NCBI GenBank assembly: GCA_900635465.1
Contig: LR134135.1
Span: forward strand, 434,001-498,000
DNA length: 64,000 bases
DNA from: Lelliottia amnigena
GTDB lineage: Bacteria; Pseudomonadota; Gammaproteobacteria; Enterobacterales; Enterobacteriaceae
Direction of reading: 5' to 3'
The notes beneath the pieces are model-generated. The model was not told where the DNA came from, searched no databases, and saw only the letters and a list, made by a program, of their open reading frames with translations. The translations under genes and the position numbers were made by a program. Of this stretch, positions 40,696 to 52,513 are shown piece by piece; the stretch's first letter is position 1, and the number at the start of each line of letters is the position of its first letter.

Positions 40696-42048
40696 ATGGC
40701 ATTTGCGATGAAAGTAACCTCACAAGTTGAAGCGCAGCGTAAGATTCTGGAAGAAGCGGTCTCCACAGCGTTGATGCTGGCTTCCGGGAAATCAGACGGC
40801 GCGGAAGTAGCAGTCAGCAAAACCACGGGTATCAGCGTAAGCACTCGCTACGGTGAAGTCGAGAACGTGGAATTTAACAGTGACGGTGCGCTGGGGATTA
40901 CGGTTTATCACCAGAATCGCAAAGGCAGCGCGTCATCGACCGACCTCAGCCCGGATGCCATCGCCCGTACCGTGCAGGCTGCGCTGGATATTGCGCGCTA
41001 TACCTCACCCGATCCCTATGCAGGCGTCGCGGATAAAGAATTGCTGGCGTTTGACGCGCCGGATCTCAGCCTTTTCCATCCGGCTGAAGTGTCTCCAGAC
41101 GAAGCCATTGAGTTTGCCGCGCGCGCCGAACAGGCCTCTCTGAAGGCGGATAAACGCATCACCAATACCGAAGGCGGCAGCTTTAACAGCCACTACGGCA
41201 TCAAAGTGTTCGGCAACAGCCACGGCATGTTGCAGGGCTACAGCTCTACGCGCCACTCCCTTTCCAGCTGCGTTATCGCTGAAGAAAATGGCGACATGGA
41301 ACGTGATTACGCCTACACCATTGGCCGTGCGATGGGCGATTTACAGTCCCCTGAATGGGTCGGTGAAGAGTGTGCAAAACGCACGCTGTCACGCCTGTCT
41401 CCGCGCAAACTGTCCACCATGAAAGCGCCGGTGATTTTTGCCAACGAAGTGGCGACCGGGCTGTTTGGTCATCTGGTTGGGGCGATTGCGGGCGGTGCGG
41501 TTTATCGTAAATCGACGTTCCTGCTCGACTCTTTGGGGCAACAAATTCTGCCGGAATGGCTGACCATCGAAGAACATCCGCATTTGCTGAAAGGGCTGGC
41601 GTCGACGCCGTTCGACGGCGAAGGCGTGCGTACAGAACGTCGCGACATCATTAAAGACGGTATTCTGACGCAGTGGCTGCTGACCAGCTATTCTGCGCGC
41701 AAGCTCGGTCTGCAAAGTACCGGCCACGCGGGCGGCATCCACAACTGGCGCATCGAAGGCCAGGGCCTGAACTTTGAACAGATGCTCAAAGAAATGGGCA
41801 CCGGCCTGGTCGTGACTGAGCTGATGGGCCAGGGCGTCAGCGGGATCACCGGCGATTACTCTCGCGGTGCGGCCGGCTTCTGGGTTGAAAACGGTGAAAT
41901 TCAGTATCCGGTGAGCGAAATCACCATTGCCGGTAACTTAAAAGACATGTGGCGCAATATCGTTACGGTCGGTAACGATATTGAAACACGTAGCAATATA
42001 CAGTGTGGTTCAGTGCTGTTACCCGAGATGAAAATCGCGGGTCAATAA
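40696..42048 (+). CDS. pmbA: PmbA/TldE, subunit of the TldD-TldE metalloprotease
   Basis: 450 residues matching E. coli PmbA over its whole length (start MAFAMKV for MALAMKV). With TldD it forms a protease that matures microcin B17 and degrades CcdA. The metal-binding motif is in TldD, not here. The start at 40696 is fixed by comparison; the open frame extends upstream to 40381 across darP but is not coding there. The next gene is cybC. Confidence 0.95.
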
Positions 42049-42049
42049 T

Positions 42050-42082
42050 ACCCGTCATACTTCACGTGGCAGATGCGTTGGC
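42050..42082. repeat. Partial copy of a dispersed enterobacterial extragenic repeat
   Basis: The 33 bases here match 59709-59741 at 27 of 33 positions, ending in TGCGTTGGC in both. Downstream the sequence continues into CTCGAATTATTTAGGGTA, the usual distal end of this repeat family. The middle of the element is missing, so this is a shortened copy. Confidence 0.65.
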
Positions 42083-42141
42083 TGCGCTCGAATTATTTAG
42101 GGTATTTAGCTTATTTTTCATAATAAAAAAGGAAGTGAGCA

Positions 42142-42528
42142 ATGCGTAAAAACCTGTTAGCCATTCTTGCTGTGTCGTCGTTAGTGTTCAGTTCTGCTGG
42201 GTTTGCCGCCGATCTTGAAGATGATATGAACACGCTCAGTACCAACCTGAAAGTGGTCCAGAAAACGGATAATGCGACGGAAATGAAAGACGCATTGACC
42301 AAAATGCGCGTCGCCGCACTCGATGCGCAAAAAGCGACGCCACCGAAGCTGGAAAACAAAGCCGCAGACAGCGCTGAAATGAAAGACTATCGCCACGGTT
42401 TTGACGTGCTGGTCGGCCAGATCGACGGTGCCCTGAAGCTTGCCAACGAAGGCAAGGTGAAAGAAGCCCAGGCCGCCGCTGACGGATTCATTGCCACCCG
42501 CAACGAAAACCACAAAAAATTCCGCTAA
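42142..42528 (+). CDS. cybC: Soluble periplasmic cytochrome b562
   Basis: 128 residues: a 22-residue signal peptide (…SAGFA) and a 106-residue four-helix bundle. The heme ligands of cytochrome b562, Met7 (ADLEDDM) and His102 (NENHKKFR), are both in place in the mature numbering. The electron-transfer partner is unknown. A terminator follows. Confidence 0.95.
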
Positions 42529-42559
42529 TGGCACGCTAAGCCAGACGGCAAAATAATCA

Positions 42560-42584
42560 ACGGGGGCGTATTCCCCCCGTTTTG
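42560..42584 (+). terminator. Rho-independent terminator of cybC
   Basis: ACGGGGG (42560-42566) pairs with CCCCCGT (42574-42580), followed by TTTGTTTG. Confidence 0.8.
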
Positions 42585-42682
42585 TTTGCCACAACGTAAT
42601 AAGAAAACCTTATCCGCGTCACACTTTACGACCTTGCGCGTAAATCTTTCCACTCTGCTTTCTGACCTTTCACCGCCGAATC

Positions 42683-42700
42683 ACGTGACATTCATCACGT
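42683..42700 (+). promoter_or_regulatory. CRP-like inverted repeat upstream of the EF_0829-type operon
   Basis: ACGTGA-CATTCA-TCACGT has perfect six-base arms and the CRP spacing (TGTGA-N6-TCACA), with the outer T replaced by C in both arms. Likely catabolite control; other CRP/FNR-family binding is possible. Confidence 0.5.
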
Positions 42701-42763
42701 AAATCCAGTTGATAATACATATTCACCGTAATTATGTGGAACAGATCACTGGTGCCGCTTTCC

Positions 42764-42783
42764 TTTCCACTTCGAAGTGGAAA
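42764..42783 (+). promoter_or_regulatory. 20-bp perfect palindrome, candidate operator
   Basis: TTTCCACTTCGAAGTGGAAA is fully self-complementary. It lies 87 bases before the first start codon of the operon and no T tract follows. A related half-site TTTCCACT occurs near 42648. It is a good candidate for binding by the PRD activator encoded at 49818-51728. Confidence 0.6.
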
Positions 42784-42869
42784 ACAACTCGCTACAAACC
42801 TTTAACCTCCAGCGTTAGTTTTATCCCAGAGCCATTAACGGGGTAAGACGAGTGATTAACGGAGCGGTA

Positions 42870-43190
42870 ATGAACGACGTTGGGGAACAGGCAGCGCAAA
42901 CTGAAACGCTCGCAAACACCATGCTTGAGCAGGTCTATTCCCTGCTTGCTCGCCACAACATCATTCCCAATGACGTCCAGCGGCAGATGCTGACGTCACA
43001 CGTTCGCGCAATGGCGCACCGGTCAGTGACCGGCGAACCGCTGCCAGAGGTCGAAGCTGACCTGTTCGACGAAATTTCAGCAGATTCAATGCGGCTTGCC
43101 CGCGAAGTGGTCGCGCAGTTCGGCAATCTTCCTGATGAAGAGGCCTGGCTGCTCTCCGTTCACTTCGAAGTCGCTAAAGACAACCTTTAA
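42870..43190 (+). CDS. Small PRD-domain protein (EF_0829 family)
   Basis: 106 residues consisting of a single PTS-regulation domain: VYSLLARHNI, LTSHVRAMAHRSVTGEPLP (His44, His50 are candidate phospho-sites), VVAQFGNLPDEEAWLLSVHFE. There is no DNA- or RNA-binding domain. The family accompanies the membrane proteins encoded downstream in Enterococcus and Aeromonas. The start at 42870 follows GGAG with correct spacing; a GTG at 42852 does not. Probably senses or relays PTS phosphorylation; unproven. Confidence 0.78.
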   Translation: MNDVGEQAAQTETLANTMLEQVYSLLARHNIIPNDVQRQMLTSHVRAMAHRSVTGEPLPEVEADLFDEISADSMRLAREVVAQFGNLPDEEAWLLSVHFEVAKDNL

Positions 43191-43201
43191 GGAGCTACAC
43201 A

Positions 43202-43564
43202 ATGGAACAAATTACAGTCGTGATCGGCGATCGTCTTGGTAAAGGCCAGAAAGTGGCTATCGGTGTGGAAAAGGCCGGCGGCCGTGCGGTTGTCGTACCC
43301 GGCGTGGCGGCGGACATGAAATTGGGCGACGTGATGAAAGCGGAAAACGCCACATTCGGGATCTCGTTCTGCGGCAGCGGCGGTGCGGGTGCCATCACAG
43401 CGCAAACCAAACATGGCTACAAGGCTAAATACGGTATGCGTTCAGTGGAAGAGGGCGTCACTGCCATCAACGAAGGCAACAACGTTTTGGGTTTTGGTTT
43501 TATGGATAAAGAAGAGCTGGGCGAGCGACTGGTGCAGGCCTGGCTGAAAAAGTACGGCGCGTAA
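43202..43564 (+). CDS. Glycine-rich SFCGS-family protein (EF_0830 family)
   Basis: 120 residues, cytosolic. Central motif ISFCGSGGAGAITAQTKHGY (Cys57) sits after a predicted beta strand. The Cys-Gly-Ser-Gly loop recalls the phosphocysteine loop of PTS EIIB proteins, though the overall similarity is not strong enough to claim homology. AAGGAG precedes the start. It is distantly like YhfU (DUF2620) of E. coli, which also travels with a small PRD protein. Function unknown. Confidence 0.75.
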   Translation: MEQITVVIGDRLGKGQKVAIGVEKAGGRAVVVPGVAADMKLGDVMKAENATFGISFCGSGGAGAITAQTKHGYKAKYGMRSVEEGVTAINEGNNVLGFGFMDKEELGERLVQAWLKKYGA

Positions 43565-43566
43565 CC

Positions 43567-43866
43567 ATGAAAGAGCAATTCACCACCACGGTGAGAGTGA
43601 AAGGCAAAGGTGACGCCAAAACGCGCGCCTTTGCCGACGCGCTAAACCACGTACAGGCCGCGGTGATGAACGCATCGCCGCATATCTTACTGCGTATTGA
43701 GCCACAGGATGTGCAGGTTGTTCAGGCGCAAGAAGCGGTGCGTAAAGAAGCGTTTCTGTTCTTCTTTTTGCGCCGGGAAAGACGCACTTACAGCGTGGAG
43801 CTGGACGTGACCGTCAACGTGACTGCCATCAATCTTGATCGGGTGGATTTTGTCACGCAACGCTGA
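43567..43866 (+). CDS. DUF4312 protein (EF_0831 family)
   Basis: 99 residues, two bases after the preceding stop. It begins with an amphipathic strand (FTTTVRVKGKGDAKTRAFADALNHVQ) that has the look of a dodecin/YbjQ-like small beta sandwich, and has FFFLRRERRTYSVELDVTVNVTAINLDRVDF. No catalytic motif visible. Probably a cytosolic component of the transporter encoded next. Confidence 0.75.
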   Translation: MKEQFTTTVRVKGKGDAKTRAFADALNHVQAAVMNASPHILLRIEPQDVQVVQAQEAVRKEAFLFFFLRRERRTYSVELDVTVNVTAINLDRVDFVTQR

Positions 43867-43888
43867 TTCTCACTAATAGGGCAGACGA

Positions 43889-44665
43889 ATGTTCCTGATA
43901 ATTTTAATAAAATCGCTCATCATCGGCGGCCTGGTTGGCGTCGGCGTTGGCGCCGGGGCTGCACGCATGTTTCATGCGCCTACCACACAGGGTATGGGCG
44001 CATTTCGTACGTTGGGGGAACTGAACTCCTGTGAAGGGGATCCCGCGTCTCACTTCTCCTTTGGTCTGGGGTTCTTCTTCAACGCCTGGGCATCGTCAGT
44101 GGCGGCGGGGGCCTTCACGCAGGACGTTGACCATCGCATCATCCCTAACTGGGGCGCCGCGGCGCTGATGTTAAAAAACCGCAACGTTGGTGAAACGCTG
44201 CACGATCCACGCAAAATGGCGATTGCCTGCGGCGTGATCGGCATGTTCGTGGTCACCTTCTTAAACCTCACTGCCTCGTCTGTACCTGCGGCGCTTCAGG
44301 TCACAGCCGTGAAGGTGCTGGTTCCTGCGGCGAACCTGCTGGTCAACACCGTCATGCCGGTCATCTTCTGGCTGGCGGCAATCGACGCGGGTAAAAAATC
44401 CGGCTTCTGGGCCACCGTTTTTGGCGGCGCGGCGCAGCTGATTATGGGCAACGCCGTACCGGGTCTGGTGCTGGGCATTCTGATTGGTAAAGGCGTCGAA
44501 GAGAGCGGCTGGAACCGCGTGACCAAAGTGATGATGGTGGCGATTGTTCTGCTGTTCGTGCTGAGTGGTTTCTTCCGTGGCTTCGACATGAAGATGATCG
44601 AATCCTTCCATCTGACCGTGCCGAACTGGCTCGACATGATCCACAGCTCGCTCAGCGGCAAATAA
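43889..44665 (+). CDS. DUF4311 membrane protein (EF_0833 family)
   Basis: 258 residues with about six to seven hydrophobic segments. The first loop has GVGAGAARMFHAPTTQGMGAFRTLGELNSCEGDPASHFSFGLGFFFNAWASS, a highly polar insert between membrane spans that may bind substrate. The C-terminal half has VKVLVPAANLLVNTVMPVIFWLAAIDAGKKSGFW. It resembles no characterised transporter that I know. Presumed permease subunit with DUF4310. Confidence 0.75.
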   Translation: MFLIILIKSLIIGGLVGVGVGAGAARMFHAPTTQGMGAFRTLGELNSCEGDPASHFSFGLGFFFNAWASSVAAGAFTQDVDHRIIPNWGAAALMLKNRNVGETLHDPRKMAIACGVIGMFVVTFLNLTASSVPAALQVTAVKVLVPAANLLVNTVMPVIFWLAAIDAGKKSGFWATVFGGAAQLIMGNAVPGLVLGILIGKGVEESGWNRVTKVMMVAIVLLFVLSGFFRGFDMKMIESFHLTVPNWLDMIHSSLSGK

Positions 44666-44678
44666 CAGGAGCCTCAAC

Positions 44679-45320
44679 ATGGAACAGAATAAAGGTTTTT
44701 GGTATGCCGACTGGTCGTTCCCGATCTTCGTTGGCCTGCTCTCATCCGGCGTTTTCGCCGGGACGCATATGTTCTACCTGTACGGCATCGGCGCGTTTAA
44801 CGAAGTGGCCTTCGTGGCGATGTTAAAAGCGGGCATGGATACCGGCGTTTACGGCGCGGTGGCGGCCTTTGGTGCCAGCTTCCTGTTTGCGCGCATCATC
44901 GAAGGCTCGCTGGTGGGTATTCTCGATATCGGCGGAGCGATTCAAACGGGCGTTGGCCTCGGCGTTCCGGCGTTGCTGCTCGGCGCGGGCTTTGTCTTCC
45001 CGGTGGCTAACTTTGTGGCTTCGCTGGCCACCGGTCTGGTGATTGGGCTGGCGATTGGCTACCTGATTATCCTGGCGCGTAAATTCACCATCAACCAGAG
45101 CGATTCCACCTACGGGGCGGACGTGATGATGGGCGCGGGTAACGCCTCTGGCCGCTTTCTTGGCCCGTTGATTATCCTCAGCGCGATGACCGCCTCTATC
45201 CCGATTGGTATTGGTTCTCTGATTGGCGCGCTGCTGTTTTATCTCTGGCAGAAGCCGATTACCGGTGGCGCGATCCTTGGCGCAATGATTTTGGGTTCGC
45301 TGTTCCCGGTGGCCCTTTAA
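44679..45320 (+). CDS. DUF4310 membrane protein (EF_0832 family)
   Basis: 213 residues with six predicted membrane spans (for example PIFVGLLSSGVFAGTHMFYLY, GVPALLLGAGFVFPVANFVASLATGL and SIPIGIGSLIGALLFYLW). The loop DSTYGADVMMGAGNASGRFLGP is conserved-looking and polar. AACAGGAG precedes the start. Presumed second permease subunit. Confidence 0.75.
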   Translation: MEQNKGFWYADWSFPIFVGLLSSGVFAGTHMFYLYGIGAFNEVAFVAMLKAGMDTGVYGAVAAFGASFLFARIIEGSLVGILDIGGAIQTGVGLGVPALLLGAGFVFPVANFVASLATGLVIGLAIGYLIILARKFTINQSDSTYGADVMMGAGNASGRFLGPLIILSAMTASIPIGIGSLIGALLFYLWQKPITGGAILGAMILGSLFPVAL

Positions 45321-45363
45321 TACCCGGCGGGCGCTTCGGCGCTCGCTTTCTCTGGAGATGTTT

Positions 45364-46497
45364 ATGTTTGATTTACTCCTGCGCCGCGCGCGCCTCACCG
45401 ACGATACGCTGGCTGACATTGCCATTCAGGACGGCAAAATTGCGGCGCTGGGTGAGATTAACGCTCCCGCACACAAAACCGTCGAGCTGAACGGCGAAGT
45501 GTTTGTCAGCGCGGGCTGGATTGATTCTCACGTTCACTGCTACCCCAACTCCCCGATTTATCATGATGAGCCGGACAGCGTCGGTATCGCGACTGGCGTC
45601 ACGACCGTCGTGGACGCGGGCAGTACCGGTGCCGACGATGTGGACGATTTCTACGAAATTACCCGCAAAGCCAGCACGGCGGTTTTCGCGCTGCTGAATA
45701 TTTCCCGCGTCGGGCTGATCGCTCAAAACGAGCTGGCGAACATGGCCAATATCGATGCGGATGCGGTACAGCAGGCCGTGAAGCGCCACCCTGATTTTAT
45801 CGTGGGCCTGAAAGCCCGCATGAGCAGCAGCGTGGTCGGTGAAAACGGCATCACGCCGCTGGCGTGCGCAAAAGAGATGCAGCAGCAGAATGGCGGCCTG
45901 CCGCTGATGGTGCATATCGGCAACAATCCGCCAAACCTCGATGAAATTGCCGATCTGCTGAGTTCTGGCGACATCATCACCCACTGCTACAACGGCAAAC
46001 CGAACCGCATTCTTACGCCGTCGGGCGAACTGCGTGCCTCCATCACCAACGCGCTGAAGCGCGGCGTGCGCCTTGACGTCGGCCACGGCACGGCGAGTTT
46101 TAGCTTCGAGGTGGCGAAGCGCGCCATCGCAATGGGCATTCTGCCGCACACCATCAGCTCGGATATCTACTGCCGCAACCGCCTCAACGGGCCGGTGGGT
46201 AGCCTTGCCAGCGTGATGTCGAAATTCCTCGCCATCGGTATGTCGCTACCGCAGGTGATCGAGTGCGTGACCGCCAACGCCGCCGACGGCCTGCGTCTGA
46301 CGCAAAAAGGCCGCATTCAGCCGGGTCTGGATGCCGACCTGACGCTGTTCACCGTAAAACGCCAGCCGACGCTGCTGGTAGATGCTGAAAACGACAGCCT
46401 GCAGGCTGAACATATTTTGCTGCCGCTTGCCGCGATCCGCGCAGGCAAGGGCTACATGACCGAACAAGGGAGCACGGAACATGTCTTCGATTTATGA
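45364..46497 (+). CDS. Amidohydrolase/deacetylase-family metallohydrolase (EF_0837 family)
   Basis: 377 residues. A TIM-barrel amidohydrolase with the ligand set in order: HVH after SAGWIDS (about residue 58), the lysine of VGLKARMS (about 152), MVHIGNN, IITHCYNG, and LDVGHG. Close in layout to D-aminoacylases and N-acetylglucosamine-6-phosphate deacetylases. The start at 45364 has GGAG five to seven bases upstream; the ATG at 45358 would overlap it. It overlaps the ammonia-lyase gene by 17 bases. Probably removes an N-acyl group ahead of the lyase. Confidence 0.85.
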   Translation: MFDLLLRRARLTDDTLADIAIQDGKIAALGEINAPAHKTVELNGEVFVSAGWIDSHVHCYPNSPIYHDEPDSVGIATGVTTVVDAGSTGADDVDDFYEITRKASTAVFALLNISRVGLIAQNELANMANIDADAVQQAVKRHPDFIVGLKARMSSSVVGENGITPLACAKEMQQQNGGLPLMVHIGNNPPNLDEIADLLSSGDIITHCYNGKPNRILTPSGELRASITNALKRGVRLDVGHGTASFSFEVAKRAIAMGILPHTISSDIYCRNRLNGPVGSLASVMSKFLAIGMSLPQVIECVTANAADGLRLTQKGRIQPGLDADLTLFTVKRQPTLLVDAENDSLQAEHILLPLAAIRAGKGYMTEQGSTEHVFDL

Positions 46498-47599
46498 GAA
46501 ATACCATTTAAAACAGGTGATCAACACCTCCGGCCGCATGACGGCGCTGGGCGTTTCCACACCGCGTCCGGAAGTGGTGCAGGCGGCGATGGACGGCATG
46601 AATCAGTATTTCGAGATGAAAGATCTGGTCAATAAAACCGGTGAATACATCGCGAAGCTGTTGGACGTAGAAGGCGCAACGGTCGTCTCCTGCGCCTCGG
46701 CGGGTATTGCGCAGTCCGTGGCCGCGGTGCTGGTGAAAGAGAGTGACTGGCTGCTGGAAAACCTGCACGTCACGCCCATTGAGAACAACGAAATCGTGCT
46801 GCCGAAAGGTCACAACGTCAACTTTGGCGCACCGGTCGGCACCATGGTCGCGCTCGGTGGCGGCAAAATGGTCGAAGCGGGTTACGCCAACGAATGCTCC
46901 GCCGATCAGCTGGCGGCGGCGATCACCCCGCGTACCGCAGCCATTCTTTACATCAAGTCTCACCACTGCGTGCAGAAAAGCATGCTCAGCGTCGAGCAGG
47001 CGGCGGTGGTTGCGCGCAAACACGATCTGCCGTTGATCGTCGATGCAGCAGCGGAAGAAGATCTGCATGTCTATTACCGCTCCGGCGCGGATCTTGTGAT
47101 CTACAGCGGCGCGAAGGCGATCGAGGGGCCAACCAGCGGCCTGGTGATCGGTAAAACGCAGTATGTCGAATGGGTGAAACGCCAGACGGCGGGCATTGGC
47201 CGCGCCATGAAAGTGGGTAAAGAGGGCATCCTGGGCCTGACCTGCGCTATCGAACATTACCTGACGGCGACCAAAGAGAGCGGCGCTGAAATGGTCGCGA
47301 AAATGACCCCCTTTATTGACGCACTGAATACCTTAAACGGTGTGACGGCCCGTGTGGTCTGGGACAGCGCCGGACGGGATATCGCGCGCAGCGAAATCAA
47401 ATTCGACGAAGCCGCCACCGGCGTGGGCACCGGCGATCTGGTGAACGCGCTCAAGCAGGGCGAATACGCTATCTACTTCCGTGGCTACAAGGCCAACGAA
47501 GGGATTATCGAAGCGGACGTGCGCAGCGTGACCGCCGACCAGCTAGAAATTGTTTATCGCCGCATCCGCGAAGTATTAGGCCAGGAGAAAAACGCATGA
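46481..47599 (+). CDS. DgaE-like PLP-dependent ammonia-lyase
   Basis: 372 residues, SelA-related fold-type I PLP enzyme. Lys212 in YSGAKAIEGP is the expected Schiff-base lysine, with VDAAAEEDLH (about 188-197) holding the PLP-pairing Asp. The family member DgaE of Salmonella eliminates ammonia from D-glucosaminate 6-phosphate to give 2-keto-3-deoxygluconate 6-phosphate. The overlap with both neighbours implies translational coupling. Exact substrate may differ here. Confidence 0.85.
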   Translation: MSSIYEKYHLKQVINTSGRMTALGVSTPRPEVVQAAMDGMNQYFEMKDLVNKTGEYIAKLLDVEGATVVSCASAGIAQSVAAVLVKESDWLLENLHVTPIENNEIVLPKGHNVNFGAPVGTMVALGGGKMVEAGYANECSADQLAAAITPRTAAILYIKSHHCVQKSMLSVEQAAVVARKHDLPLIVDAAAEEDLHVYYRSGADLVIYSGAKAIEGPTSGLVIGKTQYVEWVKRQTAGIGRAMKVGKEGILGLTCAIEHYLTATKESGAEMVAKMTPFIDALNTLNGVTARVVWDSAGRDIARSEIKFDEAATGVGTGDLVNALKQGEYAIYFRGYKANEGIIEADVRSVTADQLEIVYRRIREVLGQEKNA

Positions 47600-48336
47600 A
47601 ATTAACCCCCAATTTTTACCGTGATCGCGTGTGCCTGAACGTTCTGGCAGGTTCAAAAGCGAATGCCAGTGCGATTTACGAGGCGGCTGAAGGTCATGTT
47701 CTGGTGGGCGTGTTGTCTAAAAACTATCCTGATGTGGACAGCGCCGTCGCGGATATGCGCGAGTACGCTGCGCTGATTGATAACGCACTCTCTGTAGGGC
47801 TTGGCGCGGGCGATCCCAATCAGTCGGCGATGGTCAGCGAAATCTCCCGCCAGATTCAGCCGCAGCACGTTAATCAGGTGTTTACCGGCGTGGCGACCAG
47901 CCGCGCGCTGCTGGGACAAAATGATTCCGTGGTGAACGGGTTAGTGTCACCAACCGGTACGGTCGGGATGGTCAAAATCTCCACCGGGCCGCTGAGCAGC
48001 AACGCGCCTGACGGCATCGTGCCGGTAGAAACCGCGATTGCGCTGCTGAAAGATTTTGGCGGCAGCTCCATCAAATACTTCCCGATGGGCGGCCTGGCGT
48101 GTCGCGACGAGTACAAAGCGGTGGCAGAAGCCTGCGCGAAGCACGATTTCTGGCTGGAACCGACGGGCGGTATCGATCTGGAGAACATCGAGGCGATCCT
48201 GCAGATCGCGCTGGATGCGGGCGTCAGCAAGATTATTCCGCACATTTACAGCTCGATTATCGACAAAACCACCGGCGACACTCGCCCGGAAGATGTCCGC
48301 ACGCTGCTGGATATCACGAAGAAGTTAGTGAAGTAG
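47596..48336 (+). CDS. DgaF-like KDGP aldolase
   Basis: 246 residues, TIGR03581/EF_0839-type class I aldolase. Segments GVATSRALLGQNDSVVNGLVSPTGTVGMVKI and GGSSIKYFPMGGLACRDEY carry candidate Schiff-base lysines; the C-terminal WLEPTGGIDLENIE is typical. It would split 2-keto-3-deoxygluconate 6-phosphate into pyruvate and glyceraldehyde 3-phosphate, completing the path begun by the DgaE-like enzyme. The start overlaps the previous stop by four bases. Last gene of the operon. Confidence 0.85.
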   Translation: MKLTPNFYRDRVCLNVLAGSKANASAIYEAAEGHVLVGVLSKNYPDVDSAVADMREYAALIDNALSVGLGAGDPNQSAMVSEISRQIQPQHVNQVFTGVATSRALLGQNDSVVNGLVSPTGTVGMVKISTGPLSSNAPDGIVPVETAIALLKDFGGSSIKYFPMGGLACRDEYKAVAEACAKHDFWLEPTGGIDLENIEAILQIALDAGVSKIIPHIYSSIIDKTTGDTRPEDVRTLLDITKKLVK

Positions 48337-48343
48337 AATTTTG

Positions 48344-48621
48344 CCCCTCATCCTAACCCTCTCCCTTTTGGAGGGGGGACTGTCCGGAGCGGTCTTTTCC
48401 CTTCTGCTCATAAGGAGAGGGAGTGCCGATGCACTCTTTGCCTATACCCATAGGGTGAGGGGATTGTTTTCTCCCTCTCCCTTTTGGAGAGGGACTGTCC
48501 GGAGCGGTCTTTTCCCTTCTGCTCATAGGGAGAGGGATTGCCGATGCACTCTTTGCCTATACCCATAGGGAGAGGGGATTGTTTTCTCCCTCTCCCTATG
48601 GGAGAGGGCAGGGGTGAGGGG
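48344..48621. repeat. REP-like palindrome expanded with a 115-bp tandem repeat
   Basis: Starts CCCCTCATCCTAACCCTCTCCC and ends GGGAGAGGGCAGGGGTGAGGGG, the two arms of the local REP-like element. Between them a unit containing CTGTCCGGAGCGG occurs at 48380 and again at 48495 (period 115), with further CCCTATGGGAGAGGG half-elements. It separates the operon from the lactonase gene. Confidence 0.85.
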
Positions 48622-48652
48622 ACACAAACCGCACCATCCAACAGGAGCCACC

Positions 48653-49798
48653 ATGCACACTCATCATCTGCTTGCTGCTTCACTCTCATTGCTGGCGACG
48701 GCTGCCGTTGCCCAGCCGCAGTACGCCTGGGTCGGGACGTATAATCCGAACGGTGAAGGGCTGTACCGATTTACCGTCGATCCGCAAACCGGCGCGCTCG
48801 ACCATAAAACGCGGGCCAGCACGCTGGCGAATGCCGCGCAGTTGACCGTCTCGTTCGATGGCAAAACGCTGTATCTGGCGAGCGAAGTGGAGCAAGGCGT
48901 GGTGCAGGCGCTGCGTATTGGTGATAACGGCGAGCTGAGCGCGTTAAATCAGGTCGCCTCAGGCGGCGCGGGCCCTGTTTATCTGTCGCTGACGCCAAAC
49001 GGTCGTCATTTGCTGGTGGCAAACTACGTCAGCGGTTCGATTGCGGTGCTGCCGGTGAAATCTGACGGCAGCCTCGGCGAGGCCACAGACACCCATCAGG
49101 ATCGGGGCGAACCGGGCGCAGCAGCACCCGAAGCCGCCGTGGAAGGCAGTTTTGCGATAAGCGATCATAACGGTCCGCACGCGCACATGATCGCTGCCGA
49201 TCCGAGCGGGAAGTTTGTCTTTTCAACCGATCTGGGTCTGGATCGGATCTACCAGTACCGTTTTGACGATCGCAGCGGAAAGCTCACCCCGAACGATCCG
49301 CCGTTTATCAACGCATCCTCGAAAGGTGCGGGGCCGCGCCATTTTGTCTTCACGCCAAAAGGCGATGGACTGTGGCTGATTAACGAAGAGGCATCGACGC
49401 TGACCCATTATTCGCTCGATAGCACCTCGGGTACGCTGAAAGAGGGCAAAACGATCTCCGCGCTGCCGAACGCCTACAAAGGGACCAGCTTTGCCGCGGG
49501 CCTGGTGTTGAGCCGCGACGGCAAACAGCTGTACGTCGCTAACCGTTTGCATAACAGCATCGCGCACTTTACCGTAACGGCGGACGGAGCGCTGACGCAC
49601 CAGAACGATGTCTGGACGCGTGGCGATTACCCGCGCACGCTGACGCTTGATAATCAGGGGCGCTGGCTGTACGTCATGAATCAGCGTAGCGATAACATTA
49701 CCCGTTTTCGCGTTGAGCCAGACGGTAAGCTACGCTTTGAGCCGGACTATACGCCGGTTGGCAGCCCATCCCAGATGGTCATTTCACCAGGGCCATGA
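48653..49798 (+). CDS. Exported lactonase-family (7-bladed beta-propeller) protein
   Basis: 381 residues: signal peptide (ending AVA, about residue 19), then a YbhE/Pgl-type seven-bladed propeller. HAHMIAADPSGKFVFSTDLGLDRIYQY and GAGPRHFVFTPKGDGLWLINE are the hallmark blades containing the conserved acidic and His residues. Cytosolic relatives hydrolyse 6-phosphogluconolactone; this one is exported and so would act on a free sugar lactone. The start at 48653 follows ACAGGAG. It lies between the catabolic operon and its probable regulator. Confidence 0.82.
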   Translation: MHTHHLLAASLSLLATAAVAQPQYAWVGTYNPNGEGLYRFTVDPQTGALDHKTRASTLANAAQLTVSFDGKTLYLASEVEQGVVQALRIGDNGELSALNQVASGGAGPVYLSLTPNGRHLLVANYVSGSIAVLPVKSDGSLGEATDTHQDRGEPGAAAPEAAVEGSFAISDHNGPHAHMIAADPSGKFVFSTDLGLDRIYQYRFDDRSGKLTPNDPPFINASSKGAGPRHFVFTPKGDGLWLINEEASTLTHYSLDSTSGTLKEGKTISALPNAYKGTSFAAGLVLSRDGKQLYVANRLHNSIAHFTVTADGALTHQNDVWTRGDYPRTLTLDNQGRWLYVMNQRSDNITRFRVEPDGKLRFEPDYTPVGSPSQMVISPGP

Positions 49799-49817
49799 GC
49801 CGTAAGAGGACACCGAC

Positions 49818-51728
49818 GTGCGATTTCCGAACCAACGTTTAGCGCAACTGTTTGATTTGTTGCAAAACGAGACGCTGCCGCAGGACGAGCTGGCGCAGCG
49901 CCTTTCGGTCTCAACACGTACCGTCCGCGCTGATATCACGGCCCTGAATGCGCTCCTGGCGAGTCACGGCGCGCAGTTTATTTTGAGCCGAGGCAACGGC
50001 TACCAGCTTAAAATCGACGATGCCGCGCGCTATCAGTCATTGCAGGATTCCCGTCCGCGCGCGCTGCGTATCCCGCGTACCGGACAAGAACGAGTGCACT
50101 ATCTGGTAGTGCGATTTCTCACTGCCGCTTTCTCTTTAAAGCTAGAAGATTTGGCTGATGAATGGTTTGTCAGCCGCGCCACGTTGCAAAGCGATATGGT
50201 GGACGTGCGCGAGTGGTTTCACCGCTACAATCTGACGCTCGAAACCCGCCCGCGTCACGGCATGAAACTCTTCGGAAGCGAAATGTCCGTGCGCGCGTGC
50301 CTGACCGATCTGCTGTGGGAACTGGCGCAGCAGGACAGCCTGAATCCGCTGGTGACCGAAATCGCCCTGAACGTCGGCGTGCCGGAGCAACTGGTTGGCG
50401 TGCTGCACGACACGCTCACGCGCCATCACATTCGTCTCACGGATGAAGGCGAGCTGTTTGTACGCCTGTACTGTGCGGTGTCGGTACGGCGCATCGGCGA
50501 GGGTTATCCGCTGCCGGAATTTAATGCCGAAGATGTGGAAGAGAACGTGCGCGCCGCCGCGCGGGATATCGCCGCTGCCATTTCGCAACTGGCGGATAAA
50601 GCGCTTTCGCCTTCAGAAGAGAACTGGCTGTGCGTCCATCTGGCGTCCCGTCAAATCCAGGAGATTGCCCCAAGTGCCATCAACGCCGACGACGACGAAG
50701 CGCTGGTCAATTACATCCTGCGCTACATCAACACGCACTATAACTACAATCTGCTGAACGATGCGCAGCTGCACGCAGATTTGCTGACGCATATTAAAAC
50801 CATGATCACCCGCGTGCGTTACCAAATCATGATCCCCAACCCGCTGCTGGAAAATATCAAGCAACACTATCCGATGGCGTGGGACATGACGCTGGCGGCG
50901 GTCTCTGGCTGGGGAAAATACACCCCCTATATCATCAGCGAAAACGAAATTGGTTTTCTGGTGCTGCATATCGGCGTCGGGCTGGAGCGCCATTACAACG
51001 TCGGCTATCAGCGTCAGCCGCGCGTGCTTTTGGTGTGTGATGCCGGTAACGCGATGGCGCGCATGATCGAGGCGGTGCTGCAACGCAAATATCCGCAGAT
51101 AGACGTGACGCGCACCGTCACGCTGCGCGAGTACGAACTGGCGGAAAACATCAGCGAAGATTTTGTTATTTCGACCGCGCGGATCAGCGAAAAGGCCAAA
51201 CCGGTGGTTTTGATTGCACCGTTCCCAACCGATTATCAGCTGGAGCAGATCGGCAAGCTGGTGCTGGTGGACCGCACGCGCCCGTGGATGCTGGAGAAAT
51301 ATTTCGATGCGGCGCATTTCCGCGTGATTAATAAACCCGTCGATCAGCAAACGCTGTTCCAGGAACTCTGTTCGCAGCTCGAAGCGGAAGGATTCGTTGG
51401 CGCGGAATTTCTCGACTCGGTAGTGGAGCGTGAGGCGATTGTCAGCACCATGCTCGGCGACGGCATTGCGCTGCCGCACTCCCTCGGTCTGATGGCGCAA
51501 AAAACGGTGGTCTACACCGTGCTGGCCCCGCAGGGCATCCAATGGGGCGATGAAACGGCGCACGTCATTTTCCTGCTGGCGATCAGCAAAAGCGAGTACG
51601 AAGAGGCGATGGCGATCTACGATATTTTTGTCACTTTCCTGCGGGAGCGGGCAATGACGCGGCTGTGCGCCTGTCACGATTTTGATGAGTTTAACGCGGT
51701 GGCGATGGAGAGTTTGAGTCGTTTTTGA
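49818..51728 (+). CDS. PRD-containing transcriptional activator with EIIB and EIIA domains (BglG/MtlR type)
   Basis: 636 residues. Order: DeoR/Mga-like helix-turn-helix (about 5-65), second helix-turn-helix (about 85-170), PRD1 (about 185-280), PRD2 (about 290-395), a galactitol-type EIIB domain with VCDAGNAMA (Cys407), and a fructose/mannitol-type EIIA domain with GIALPHS (His554). Such proteins activate transcription and are switched by PTS phosphorylation on PRD His, EIIB Cys and EIIA His. The start is GTG 49818 with AAGAGGA upstream. Its location makes the 42.8-49.8 kb genes the likely targets. Confidence 0.87.
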   Translation: MRFPNQRLAQLFDLLQNETLPQDELAQRLSVSTRTVRADITALNALLASHGAQFILSRGNGYQLKIDDAARYQSLQDSRPRALRIPRTGQERVHYLVVRFLTAAFSLKLEDLADEWFVSRATLQSDMVDVREWFHRYNLTLETRPRHGMKLFGSEMSVRACLTDLLWELAQQDSLNPLVTEIALNVGVPEQLVGVLHDTLTRHHIRLTDEGELFVRLYCAVSVRRIGEGYPLPEFNAEDVEENVRAAARDIAAAISQLADKALSPSEENWLCVHLASRQIQEIAPSAINADDDEALVNYILRYINTHYNYNLLNDAQLHADLLTHIKTMITRVRYQIMIPNPLLENIKQHYPMAWDMTLAAVSGWGKYTPYIISENEIGFLVLHIGVGLERHYNVGYQRQPRVLLVCDAGNAMARMIEAVLQRKYPQIDVTRTVTLREYELAENISEDFVISTARISEKAKPVVLIAPFPTDYQLEQIGKLVLVDRTRPWMLEKYFDAAHFRVINKPVDQQTLFQELCSQLEAEGFVGAEFLDSVVEREAIVSTMLGDGIALPHSLGLMAQKTVVYTVLAPQGIQWGDETAHVIFLLAISKSEYEEAMAIYDIFVTFLRERAMTRLCACHDFDEFNAVAMESLSRF

Positions 51729-51761
51729 AGGTGAGGGCGGAGAGTCGAAATCCGCCTTCAT

Positions 51762-52226
51762 TTAGCGCAAATGATGGACCACCTGGTTGCTGCTGCCGCG
51801 CCAGATCAGCGCCGGGTCTTTTAAATCCTGCACAAATTTACCGTCGACCAGCACGTTGATCAGATCAACCACGTCCTTCTGCGCATCACTCAGTTCATCC
51901 AGCCGGTAGCCGGTCCAGACCCAAATATCTTTGCCTGCACACTCTGCGCGAATGCGTTTTACCAGCGCGAGAATATCCGGCACGTTCTGCGGATGCAGGG
52001 GGTCGCCGCCCGAAAGGGTAATTCCCTGGCGCTTTATCCGCGTGTCGTTGAGGTCGTCAATGATGCGATCCGCCATCTCGTCGGTAAACGGCTGGCCTGA
52101 GTTCAGACGCCAGGTGCTTTTGTTATAGCAGCCCGGGCATTCGTGAACGCACCCTGAAACAAACAGGGTGCAGCGTGTGCCAGGGCCGTTGACGATGTCG
52201 ACGGGGTAGTAGTTGTGATATCGCAT
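51762..52226 (-). CDS. nrdG: Anaerobic ribonucleotide reductase activating protein NrdG
   Basis: 154 residues, radical-SAM enzyme with the cluster motif CVHECPGC (Cys26, Cys30, Cys33). It generates the glycyl radical on NrdD. The start at 52226 matches MRYHNYYPVDIVNGPGTRCTLF-type N-termini; the longer open frame upstream runs through repeats. Separated from nrdD by an unusual tandem-repeat array of about 300 bases. Confidence 0.95.
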   Translation of the reverse strand: MRYHNYYPVDIVNGPGTRCTLFVSGCVHECPGCYNKSTWRLNSGQPFTDEMADRIIDDLNDTRIKRQGITLSGGDPLHPQNVPDILALVKRIRAECAGKDIWVWTGYRLDELSDAQKDVVDLINVLVDGKFVQDLKDPALIWRGSSNQVVHHLR

Positions 52227-52258
52227 AGCGGTGTCCAGAAAGAATGTGCTGTCTGATG

Positions 52259-52513
52259 CCCTCACCCCGGCCCTCTCCCACAGGGAGAGGGGGCAAGAGG
52301 GTTGCTCCCCCCTTGAGGGAAAGGCGAAAAGCATGTCGCTCGATCGGTTCCCACCCCGTTAAGGGAAAGGGGTAAACGCGTTGCTCGATCGGTTCCCACC
52401 CCGTTAAGGGTAAGGGGTAAACTTGTTGCTCGATCGGTTCTCACCCCGTTAAGGGAAAGGGGTAAACGCCTTGCTCGATCGGTTCCCTCTCCCTTGAGGG
52501 AGAGGGTGAGGGG
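52259..52513. repeat. REP-like palindrome expanded with a 45-bp tandem array between nrdD and nrdG
   Basis: Left arm CCCTCACCCCGGCCCTCTCCC, right arm CCCTTGAGGGAGAGGGTGAG. Inside, GCTCGATCGGTTC starts at 52338, 52383, 52428 and 52473: a strict 45-bp period. Units differ by only a few bases. Because 45 is divisible by three, one minus-strand frame stays open across it (15-residue periodic), but it has no start or context to be a gene. Confidence 0.9.

Follow-up and report, generated by a model that had tools for sequence, protein, structure and literature searches.

Here we report the analysis of an operon in Lelliottia amnigena (Enterobacteriaceae) whose eight genes belong to families first grouped as EF_0829-EF_0839. 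It lies within a 64,000-nucleotide stretch of DNA (assembly GCA_900635465.1, contig LR134135.1, positions 434,001 to 498,000 of the forward strand), which is referred to as the window. The eight open reading frames occupy 42852-48336 on the + strand, and in NCBIfam and Pfam scans each passes the curated cut-off of its family model. The features of the locus are as follows.

42764..42783, no strand assigned: candidate operator, a perfect 20-bp palindrome (TTTCCACTTCGAAGTGGAAA), a conserved box upstream of the PRD gene.
42852..43190, + strand: small PRD protein (EF_0829); TIGR03582, 139 bits against a cut-off of 69.
43202..43564, + strand: SFCGS protein (EF_0830), probable remote relative of RpiB/LacAB; TIGR03577, 222 bits against 141; PF14272.
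43567..43866, + strand: DUF4312 protein (EF_0831); TIGR03578, 141 bits against 90; PF14189.
43889..44665, + strand: DUF4311 membrane protein (EF_0832), candidate permease subunit; TIGR03580, 512 bits against 301; PF14188.
44679..45320, + strand: DUF4310 membrane protein (EF_0833), candidate permease subunit; TIGR03579, 392 bits against 215; PF14187.
45358..46497, + strand: amidohydrolase/deacetylase (EF_0837 type); TIGR03583, 579 bits against 432.
46481..47599, + strand: DgaE-family pyridoxal phosphate (PLP)-dependent ammonia-lyase; TIGR01437, 607 bits against 385.
47596..48336, + strand: DgaF-type 2-keto-3-deoxy-6-phosphogluconate (KDPG) aldolase; TIGR03581, 411 bits against 222; NF047796, 394 bits against 300.
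48614..49798, + strand: 7-bladed beta-propeller lactonase, an accessory gene, product probably secreted; present in 48 of 80 related loci.
49818..51728, + strand: regulator of 636 residues with HTH_11, Mga helix-turn-helix (HTH), PRD, an EIIB-like segment (by eye) and an EIIA domain of the phosphotransferase system (PTS).

All eight models score over their cut-offs in the order of the EF_0829-EF_0839 / AHA_3910-AHA_3917 cluster (TIGR03577-TIGR03583, TIGR01437), and the operon is the same as that cluster. An earlier note on this DNA had made that identification; its eight genes are real and every family name in it is correct. The intergenic distances, in order, are 11, 2, 22, 13, 37, -17 and -4 bases, within the 45 bases that had been given as the upper bound, while the "several overlaps" noted there are two in number (17 and 4 bases). 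For the PRD gene there are two possible starts, GTG 42852 and the in-frame ATG 42870. The operon is larger than eight genes: the regulator is counted in, and the lactonase often precedes it.

Conservation was assessed at 99 loci, comprising the window, the best 80 of 501 relatives, four other loci and 14 further loci. The 80 are all Enterobacterales by name, and their agreement is partly due to common descent; the 14 were picked by hand for spread from 42 genomes with a DUF4310 match (three from the family of the window genome, 11 from three other families). All eight genes stand in identical order in 80/80 loci, and in the same order together with the regulator in 14/14, which excludes chance clustering. 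In all of these loci a module of four genes (SFCGS, DUF4312, DUF4311 and DUF4310) occupies the place of a mannose-type PTS permease, as had been proposed. Among the 80 loci, the regulator was present in 79, cybC in 72 and nrdG in 68, and one locus has, upstream of cybC, an EIIC gene related to that of Enterococcus faecalis. Compared with E. faecalis, the identity of the window proteins is 74% for SFCGS, 71% for DUF4310 and 67% for DUF4311, values that point to a precise shared function of these three module families; it is 66 and 72% for the aldolase (two pieces), 54% for DgaE, 49% for DUF4312, 46% for the amidohydrolase and 34% for the PRD protein.

The catabolic half of the operon is well supported. 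The pathway of amidohydrolase, ammonia-lyase and KDPG-type aldolase put forward in the earlier note agrees with the families, their order and their conservation. The amidohydrolase residues H58, H60, K152, H186, H209 and D269, which we take to be candidate metal ligands, are present in 87/87 full sequences (12 of the 99 loci gave none); the titles of its solved relatives, 8wzy and 2ics, name other activities. In the DgaE-family protein, H162, K212, R303, R334 and R348 are kept in 98/98 sequences and H161 in 96/98; they correspond to His162/His163, Lys213 and Arg301/332/346 of the Salmonella lyase (the His162 equivalent being the one kept in 96/98). A replacement of the carboxylate Arg226 by Lys was considered and rejected as not distinctive (Lys in 85/98, Arg in 13/98). 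According to the accessible parts of PMC9529869, the Salmonella enzyme has a catalytic His and a phosphate docked by hand near the three Arg residues (301/332/346), and in Salmonella both the lyase and the aldolase use 6-phosphates. That the lyase substrate of the window operon is phosphorylated has moderate support, and it is reasonable to suppose that the operon's substrate is an N-acylated amino sugar acid. The E. faecalis proteins EF0839 and EF2975 have been suggested to act in amino-sugar breakdown by an Entner-Doudoroff-like route (accessible text of PMC7701990), and a fragment with a putative ef_0839 or ef_2975 promoter was recovered in a urine-based screen (accessible text of PMC2912369). 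The accessible parts of PMC12066602, PMC8262876, PMC2941500 and PMC11325843 give no function for these genes. The lactonase has an in-frame ATG at 48653 followed by a stretch that resembles a signal peptide by eye, and its secreted appearance fits an acid supplied as lactone. Among the 80 loci it lies between aldolase and regulator in 48 and was not found in the remaining 32.

The regulator carries the Pfam domains HTH_11, Mga, PRD and EIIA_2 and no sigma-54 domain. It has the marks of the MtlR/LicR type, namely HTH domains, a PRD with conserved His and an EIIA domain with active His; only one PRD passed Pfam, the first not being recognised. The 98 sequences obtained from the 99 loci all have H325 and H384, which lie within the PRD or close to it, and 97 of them have the EIIA-type H554. 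C407, around which the segment is EIIB-like by eye, is kept in 92/98, with Ser in its place in six loci, all from a single family. Both H50 and H104 of the small PRD protein are invariant in the 96 sequences obtained from the 99 loci. No EIIA domain was seen in the E. faecalis regulator. Two Bartonella plasmids, near-identical, with shared protein accessions and counted as one lineage, carry the eight genes, then the regulator, then a gene for a 671-residue fusion of HPr and enzyme I (EI) with the sites GLHARPA and GGATSHVAI, which we take to be the HPr and EI site motifs. With this gene behind the regulator, phosphoenolpyruvate (PEP)-dependent phosphotransfer travels with the system in Bartonella. 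The system is thus tied to PEP phosphotransfer, at the least through its regulation, and the Bartonella link may serve regulation, uptake or both. The claim that the PTS is absent holds in that the operon has no mannose-type PTS permease, but it is too simple given the PRD protein, the PRD/EIIA regulator with its phosphorylatable residues and the Bartonella HPr-EI fusion.

The palindrome TTTCC-N10-GGAAA (42764-42783), some 90 bases ahead of the PRD gene, is the only such site in the window at up to three mismatches (chance mean 0.02). A search of the entire 4.47 Mb genome with its degenerate form gave a single location, and with the reversed control none. Exact five-base arms were found at -88 to -120 in 79/80 loci, the other locus (L011) having one arm change; in 14/14 further loci the box occurs without mismatch at -53 to -119, and its ten inner bases vary. 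The box spans Enterobacteriaceae, a probable Gilliamella contig and two other families, and is also present in Bartonella and Aeromonas records. When 16 selected upstream regions were aligned, it formed a conserved island, preceded in 14 of the 16 by a TGTGG-N6-TCAC element, which in our view resembles a CRP site. We infer that the adjacent regulator binds this candidate operator. No Rfam family that would point to RNA-level antitermination reached the gathering threshold in 42000-52500. A scan for sigma-70-type promoters gave 7 sites against 4.0 expected by shuffling and was not used.

Taken as a whole, these results are best explained, with modest confidence, by a unit complete for both uptake and catabolism of an acid-type amino sugar with a blocked amine. 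DUF4311 and DUF4310 would form the membrane part of a permease from no recognised family, with SFCGS and DUF4312 as cytosolic partners. The amidohydrolase would free the blocked (e.g. N-acylated) amine, which the DgaE-family enzyme would then remove, acting on the 6-phosphorylated acid; cleavage of the resulting KDPG-type product by the DgaF-type aldolase would yield pyruvate and glyceraldehyde 3-phosphate. The PRD/EIIA regulator, under HPr phosphorylation control, would activate the operon from the TTTCC-N10-GGAAA operator. A transport role of DUF4310/4311 is plausible and our best guess.

Several results weigh against this explanation. AlphaFold models of DUF4311 (AlphaFold2; predicted local distance difference test (pLDDT) 79.6, predicted template modelling score (pTM) 0.65) and DUF4310 (pLDDT 72.5, pTM 0.61) had no significant match among solved structures, and profile searches of the Protein Data Bank (PDB) and family libraries returned only their own families over cut-off and no transporter. 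SFCGS looks like an enzyme family rather than a transport subunit. The aldolase is conserved as well as the membrane proteins are, and high conservation alone is not a mark of a transport complex. The DgaE protein scores 380 bits against the cut-off of 600 of the D-glucosaminate-6-phosphate lyase equivalog NF047797. A distant solved relative to which no function is assigned (8t7j) has the three phosphate-site Arg residues as well; they are thus no proof of a phosphorylated substrate, which limits the case for one to moderate strength. Finally, the box was not found in the E. faecalis record.

The failure to find a transporter fold for the two models would also suit a membrane enzyme or energy-coupled complex formed by DUF4310-4312 and SFCGS, with uptake by a permease encoded elsewhere. 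We regard this as distinctly unlikely, since the unit occurs in two phyla and on Bartonella plasmids, whose stretches of 12 and 21.6 kb around it have no other permease annotated. No EIIC or EIID chain was among the structure matches listed for DUF4311 and DUF4310, an absence that proves nothing. The folds of Mtr methyltransferase, Rnf/Nqr, MgtE, ZIP and bile-acid transporter appeared only as low, tied matches in the structure searches and were rejected, as was, on sequence, a mutual relationship of DUF4311 and DUF4310 (profile comparison, expectation value E 0.28). Similarity to DUF2232 was seen in 67/73 DUF4311 members (best E 3e-4); the window protein is below cut-off and matches at residues 141-236 only. 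The two Pfam domains occur together in 4 of 120 listed matches, which at 372-440 aa are shorter than both proteins combined and were not used as evidence. A search of the literature found no paper naming DUF4310, DUF4311 or DUF4312, the SFCGS matches being unrelated by title, and to judge by their titles, the papers retrieved for EF_0830-0833, AHA_3914 and TIGR03580 were likewise unrelated.

Where the phosphate enters the pathway bears on the mode of uptake. No kinase was found among the eight genes in the Pfam and NCBIfam scans, or in the flanks of the 14 further loci with the E. faecalis PfkB kinase as query. Clear relatives of the Escherichia coli KdgK (55-89% identity) are encoded in 25/30 DUF4310-bearing genomes, with 89% in the window genome. 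The acid might be imported free and converted by the lyase to 2-keto-3-deoxygluconate (KDG), which chromosomal KdgK would phosphorylate ahead of the aldolase. As such a route would have it, the E. faecalis cluster is directly followed by a PfkB kinase gene, whose product has its best matches to KDG-kinase-type models, all below cut-off. Against it, four 100%-complete genomes of one family (G794, G830, G905, G980) have only relatives of 27-30% identity, one 75%-complete genome (G769) has none, and the three Arg residues that match the docked phosphate site are invariant. We consider this route possible, on the doubtful side. With KdgK in most but not all genomes, phosphorylation would either follow import of the free acid, where KdgK exists, or take place at an earlier stage.

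SFCGS is a probable remote, divergent relative of ribose-5-phosphate isomerase B, to judge from profile and alignment matches. Each of the five sequences scanned has LacAB_rpiB among its matches, listed to E 10 (best E 0.0038; 17.6 bits against a cut-off of 24.7), and TIGR02133 matches at E 1.4e-4, below its curated cut-off. In the alignment to 2vvr, Cys57, which lies in a Gly-rich loop and is invariant (98/98), corresponds to position 66 and Asn90 to position 99, where Asn occurs in 96/98 sequences and Ala in 2/98. We take Cys66 of RpiB to be its catalytic base and His99 the ring-opening residue of the wild type (2vvr itself has Asn). An equivalence of SFCGS Asp10 to the active-site Asp of RpiB was noted by eye only. 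The Cys and Gly-rich loop shared with RpiB/LacAB, and an Asn or Ala in place of the ring-opening His, as a linear substrate would permit, are what would be expected if SFCGS were a metabolic enzyme that isomerises or epimerises an open-chain sugar acid and the permease were DUF4311/DUF4310 alone, with or without DUF4312. This is a tentative alternative: every match is below a curated cut-off and spans the C-terminal two thirds only, leaving the N-terminal third uncovered, and the pathway as drawn requires no such step. As to the claim that SFCGS is part of the importer, its conservation with the module stands in favour, but as an RpiB-like protein it may instead be an enzyme or a sugar-phosphate binder.

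A further possibility is a new kind of PTS, in which DUF4311/DUF4310 translocate the substrate and Cys57 of SFCGS carries phosphate in the manner of EIIB, received from EI and HPr (perhaps via the EIIA domain of the regulator), and the substrate arrives phosphorylated. The HPr-EI fusion of the Bartonella lineage, the absence of a kinase noted above and the invariant Cys57 in its Gly-rich loop are consistent with it. So are the use of 6-phosphates by the Salmonella enzymes and a gene order that mirrors dgaABCDEF, with four uptake genes followed by lyase and aldolase (both from the accessible text of PMC9529869). Invariant histidines of DUF4311 (His29, 55, 82 and 105; 99/99) and DUF4310 (His30; 98/98) would allow phospho-His in the membrane part. 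However, the conserved His of an EIIA was found in neither soluble protein: SFCGS has H71 in only 27/98, and DUF4312, which has no conserved His or Cys, has H28 in 68/99 and H39 in 76/99. Moreover, SFCGS aligns to RpiB and not to any EIIB, its Cys57 matching the presumed catalytic base, and the HPr-EI gene is equally explained by a need to phosphorylate the regulator. We hold this reading to be improbable. A version of it, in which DUF4311/4310, DUF4312 and SFCGS would be a PEP-driven group-translocation class unrelated to PTS permeases, the RpiB-like protein passing phosphate via Cys57 to an amino sugar acid, is likewise given little credence.

The preferred explanation, import by DUF4311/DUF4310 with SFCGS and DUF4312, was compared with known systems. 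For the dgaABCDEF operon of Salmonella, we assumed which dga letter stands for which EII part. Its pathway and PRD-type regulator are described in the accessible text of PMC4987338; shared with the window operon are the lyase and KDPG-type aldolase at the operon end and PRD-type control (PMC4987338 and PMC9529869, accessible parts). The window operon differs in having no mannose-family EIIA/B/C/D in the Pfam and NCBIfam scans of its eight proteins, in its additional amidohydrolase and in a regulator without the LevR-type sigma-54 activator part. Its aldolase passes the DgaF model NF047796, whereas its lyase, with catalytic residues kept, falls short of the DgaE equivalog as given above. The E. 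faecalis cluster (L096:11548-18263) has extra genes for a lactose/cellobiose-type EIIC, a MupG-type and a PfkB protein that have no counterpart in the window copy, which has the lactonase instead. The aldolase gene of this E. faecalis strain is split.

The yhf operon of E. coli (yhfSTU-php-yhfWXYZ; L002:7936-15345) likewise encodes two small proteins, one with a PRD and the other with a Cys-Gly loop, together with a PLP enzyme, a phosphotriesterase-family enzyme and a membrane protein. YhfY is the small PRD protein (TIGR03582, E 1.6e-6, below cut-off), and YhfU, which has the Cys-Gly loop, shows a weak match to LacAB_rpiB (E 0.065) and aligns to SFCGS in hhalign (E 7e-4, 98 columns, probability 26%). 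The other enzymes differ, and YhfT has no profile similarity to DUF4310/DUF4311 (E 0.3-0.5); its reading as a DUF4311-DUF4310 fusion was rejected on sequence (E 0.29 and 0.48). A parallel between the two operons is suggested by these likenesses, which does not imply homology of the systems.

SFCGS, DUF4310, DUF4311 and DUF4312 travel together in at least two phyla, and if they form a permease, a whole class of transporter has so far been without a name. Handles on the inducer and on a possible tie between uptake and PEP phosphotransfer come from the operator, the residues of the regulator and the Bartonella version. New beyond the earlier note are the regulator as a member of the unit, the lactonase, the palindrome as a probable operator, the likely kinship of SFCGS with RpiB, the lack of an EIIA-type His in DUF4312, the Bartonella HPr-EI link and the possible yhf parallel.

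DUF4310 was found in 42/295 genomes of the order, including the window genome; one of the 42 matches is a remnant of 31 positions in a 35-residue open frame (G780:C3:34717-34809), which suggests loss of the operon in that lineage. DUF4311 exceeded its cut-off in 12/398 genomes of the phylum and DUF4310 was present in 1/369 of the class, the window genome being included in both counts. Of the 72,556 records in the plasmid collection, six match SFCGS, and the same six match DUF4311 and DUF4310: two are from Klebsiella, two from Bartonella, and one each from Aeromonas and E. faecalis. The Aeromonas record and one of the Klebsiella records have the size of a chromosome, which leaves the Bartonella records and perhaps the other Klebsiella and the E. 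faecalis record as true plasmids. The Aeromonas DUF4310 match is partial; this Aeromonas caviae copy (L098:9926-13267) has lost most of DUF4310, the amidohydrolase, the lyase and part of the aldolase. The probable Gilliamella contig (L171) has lyase- and aldolase-type genes in its operon, in contrast to a survey of Gilliamella genomes that, in its accessible text, reports no genes for further glucosaminate metabolism (PMC11325843).

The window genome (4.47 Mb, one contig) has a single DUF4311 copy, and its only full DgaE-family protein is that of the window, so that it has no separate dga operon; mannose-type EIID genes lie only outside the operon. As had been stated, cybC and nrdG are direct neighbours in E. 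coli K-12 with nothing between them, cybC being a pseudogene there. The operon DNA had no match in the E. coli collection by megablast. An E. coli match to DUF4311 in a control search was presumed to be chance by analogy with two weak matches of similar strength in relatives (24 and 22 bits), one of which (L094) lies in a DjlA-like protein. The intergenic region ahead of the lactonase (48337-48690) has the look of a repetitive element: the translated open reading frames read as such on both strands and in more than one frame of each. Elsewhere in the window genome, a LacAB_rpiB-like gene is apparently split across two frames (G000:C1:2621422-2621755), and a selA-like gene (G000:C1:164809-165422) and an EIID gene (G000:C1:2521730-2522540) each gave two partial matches in different frames, possibly broken genes or sequencing errors.

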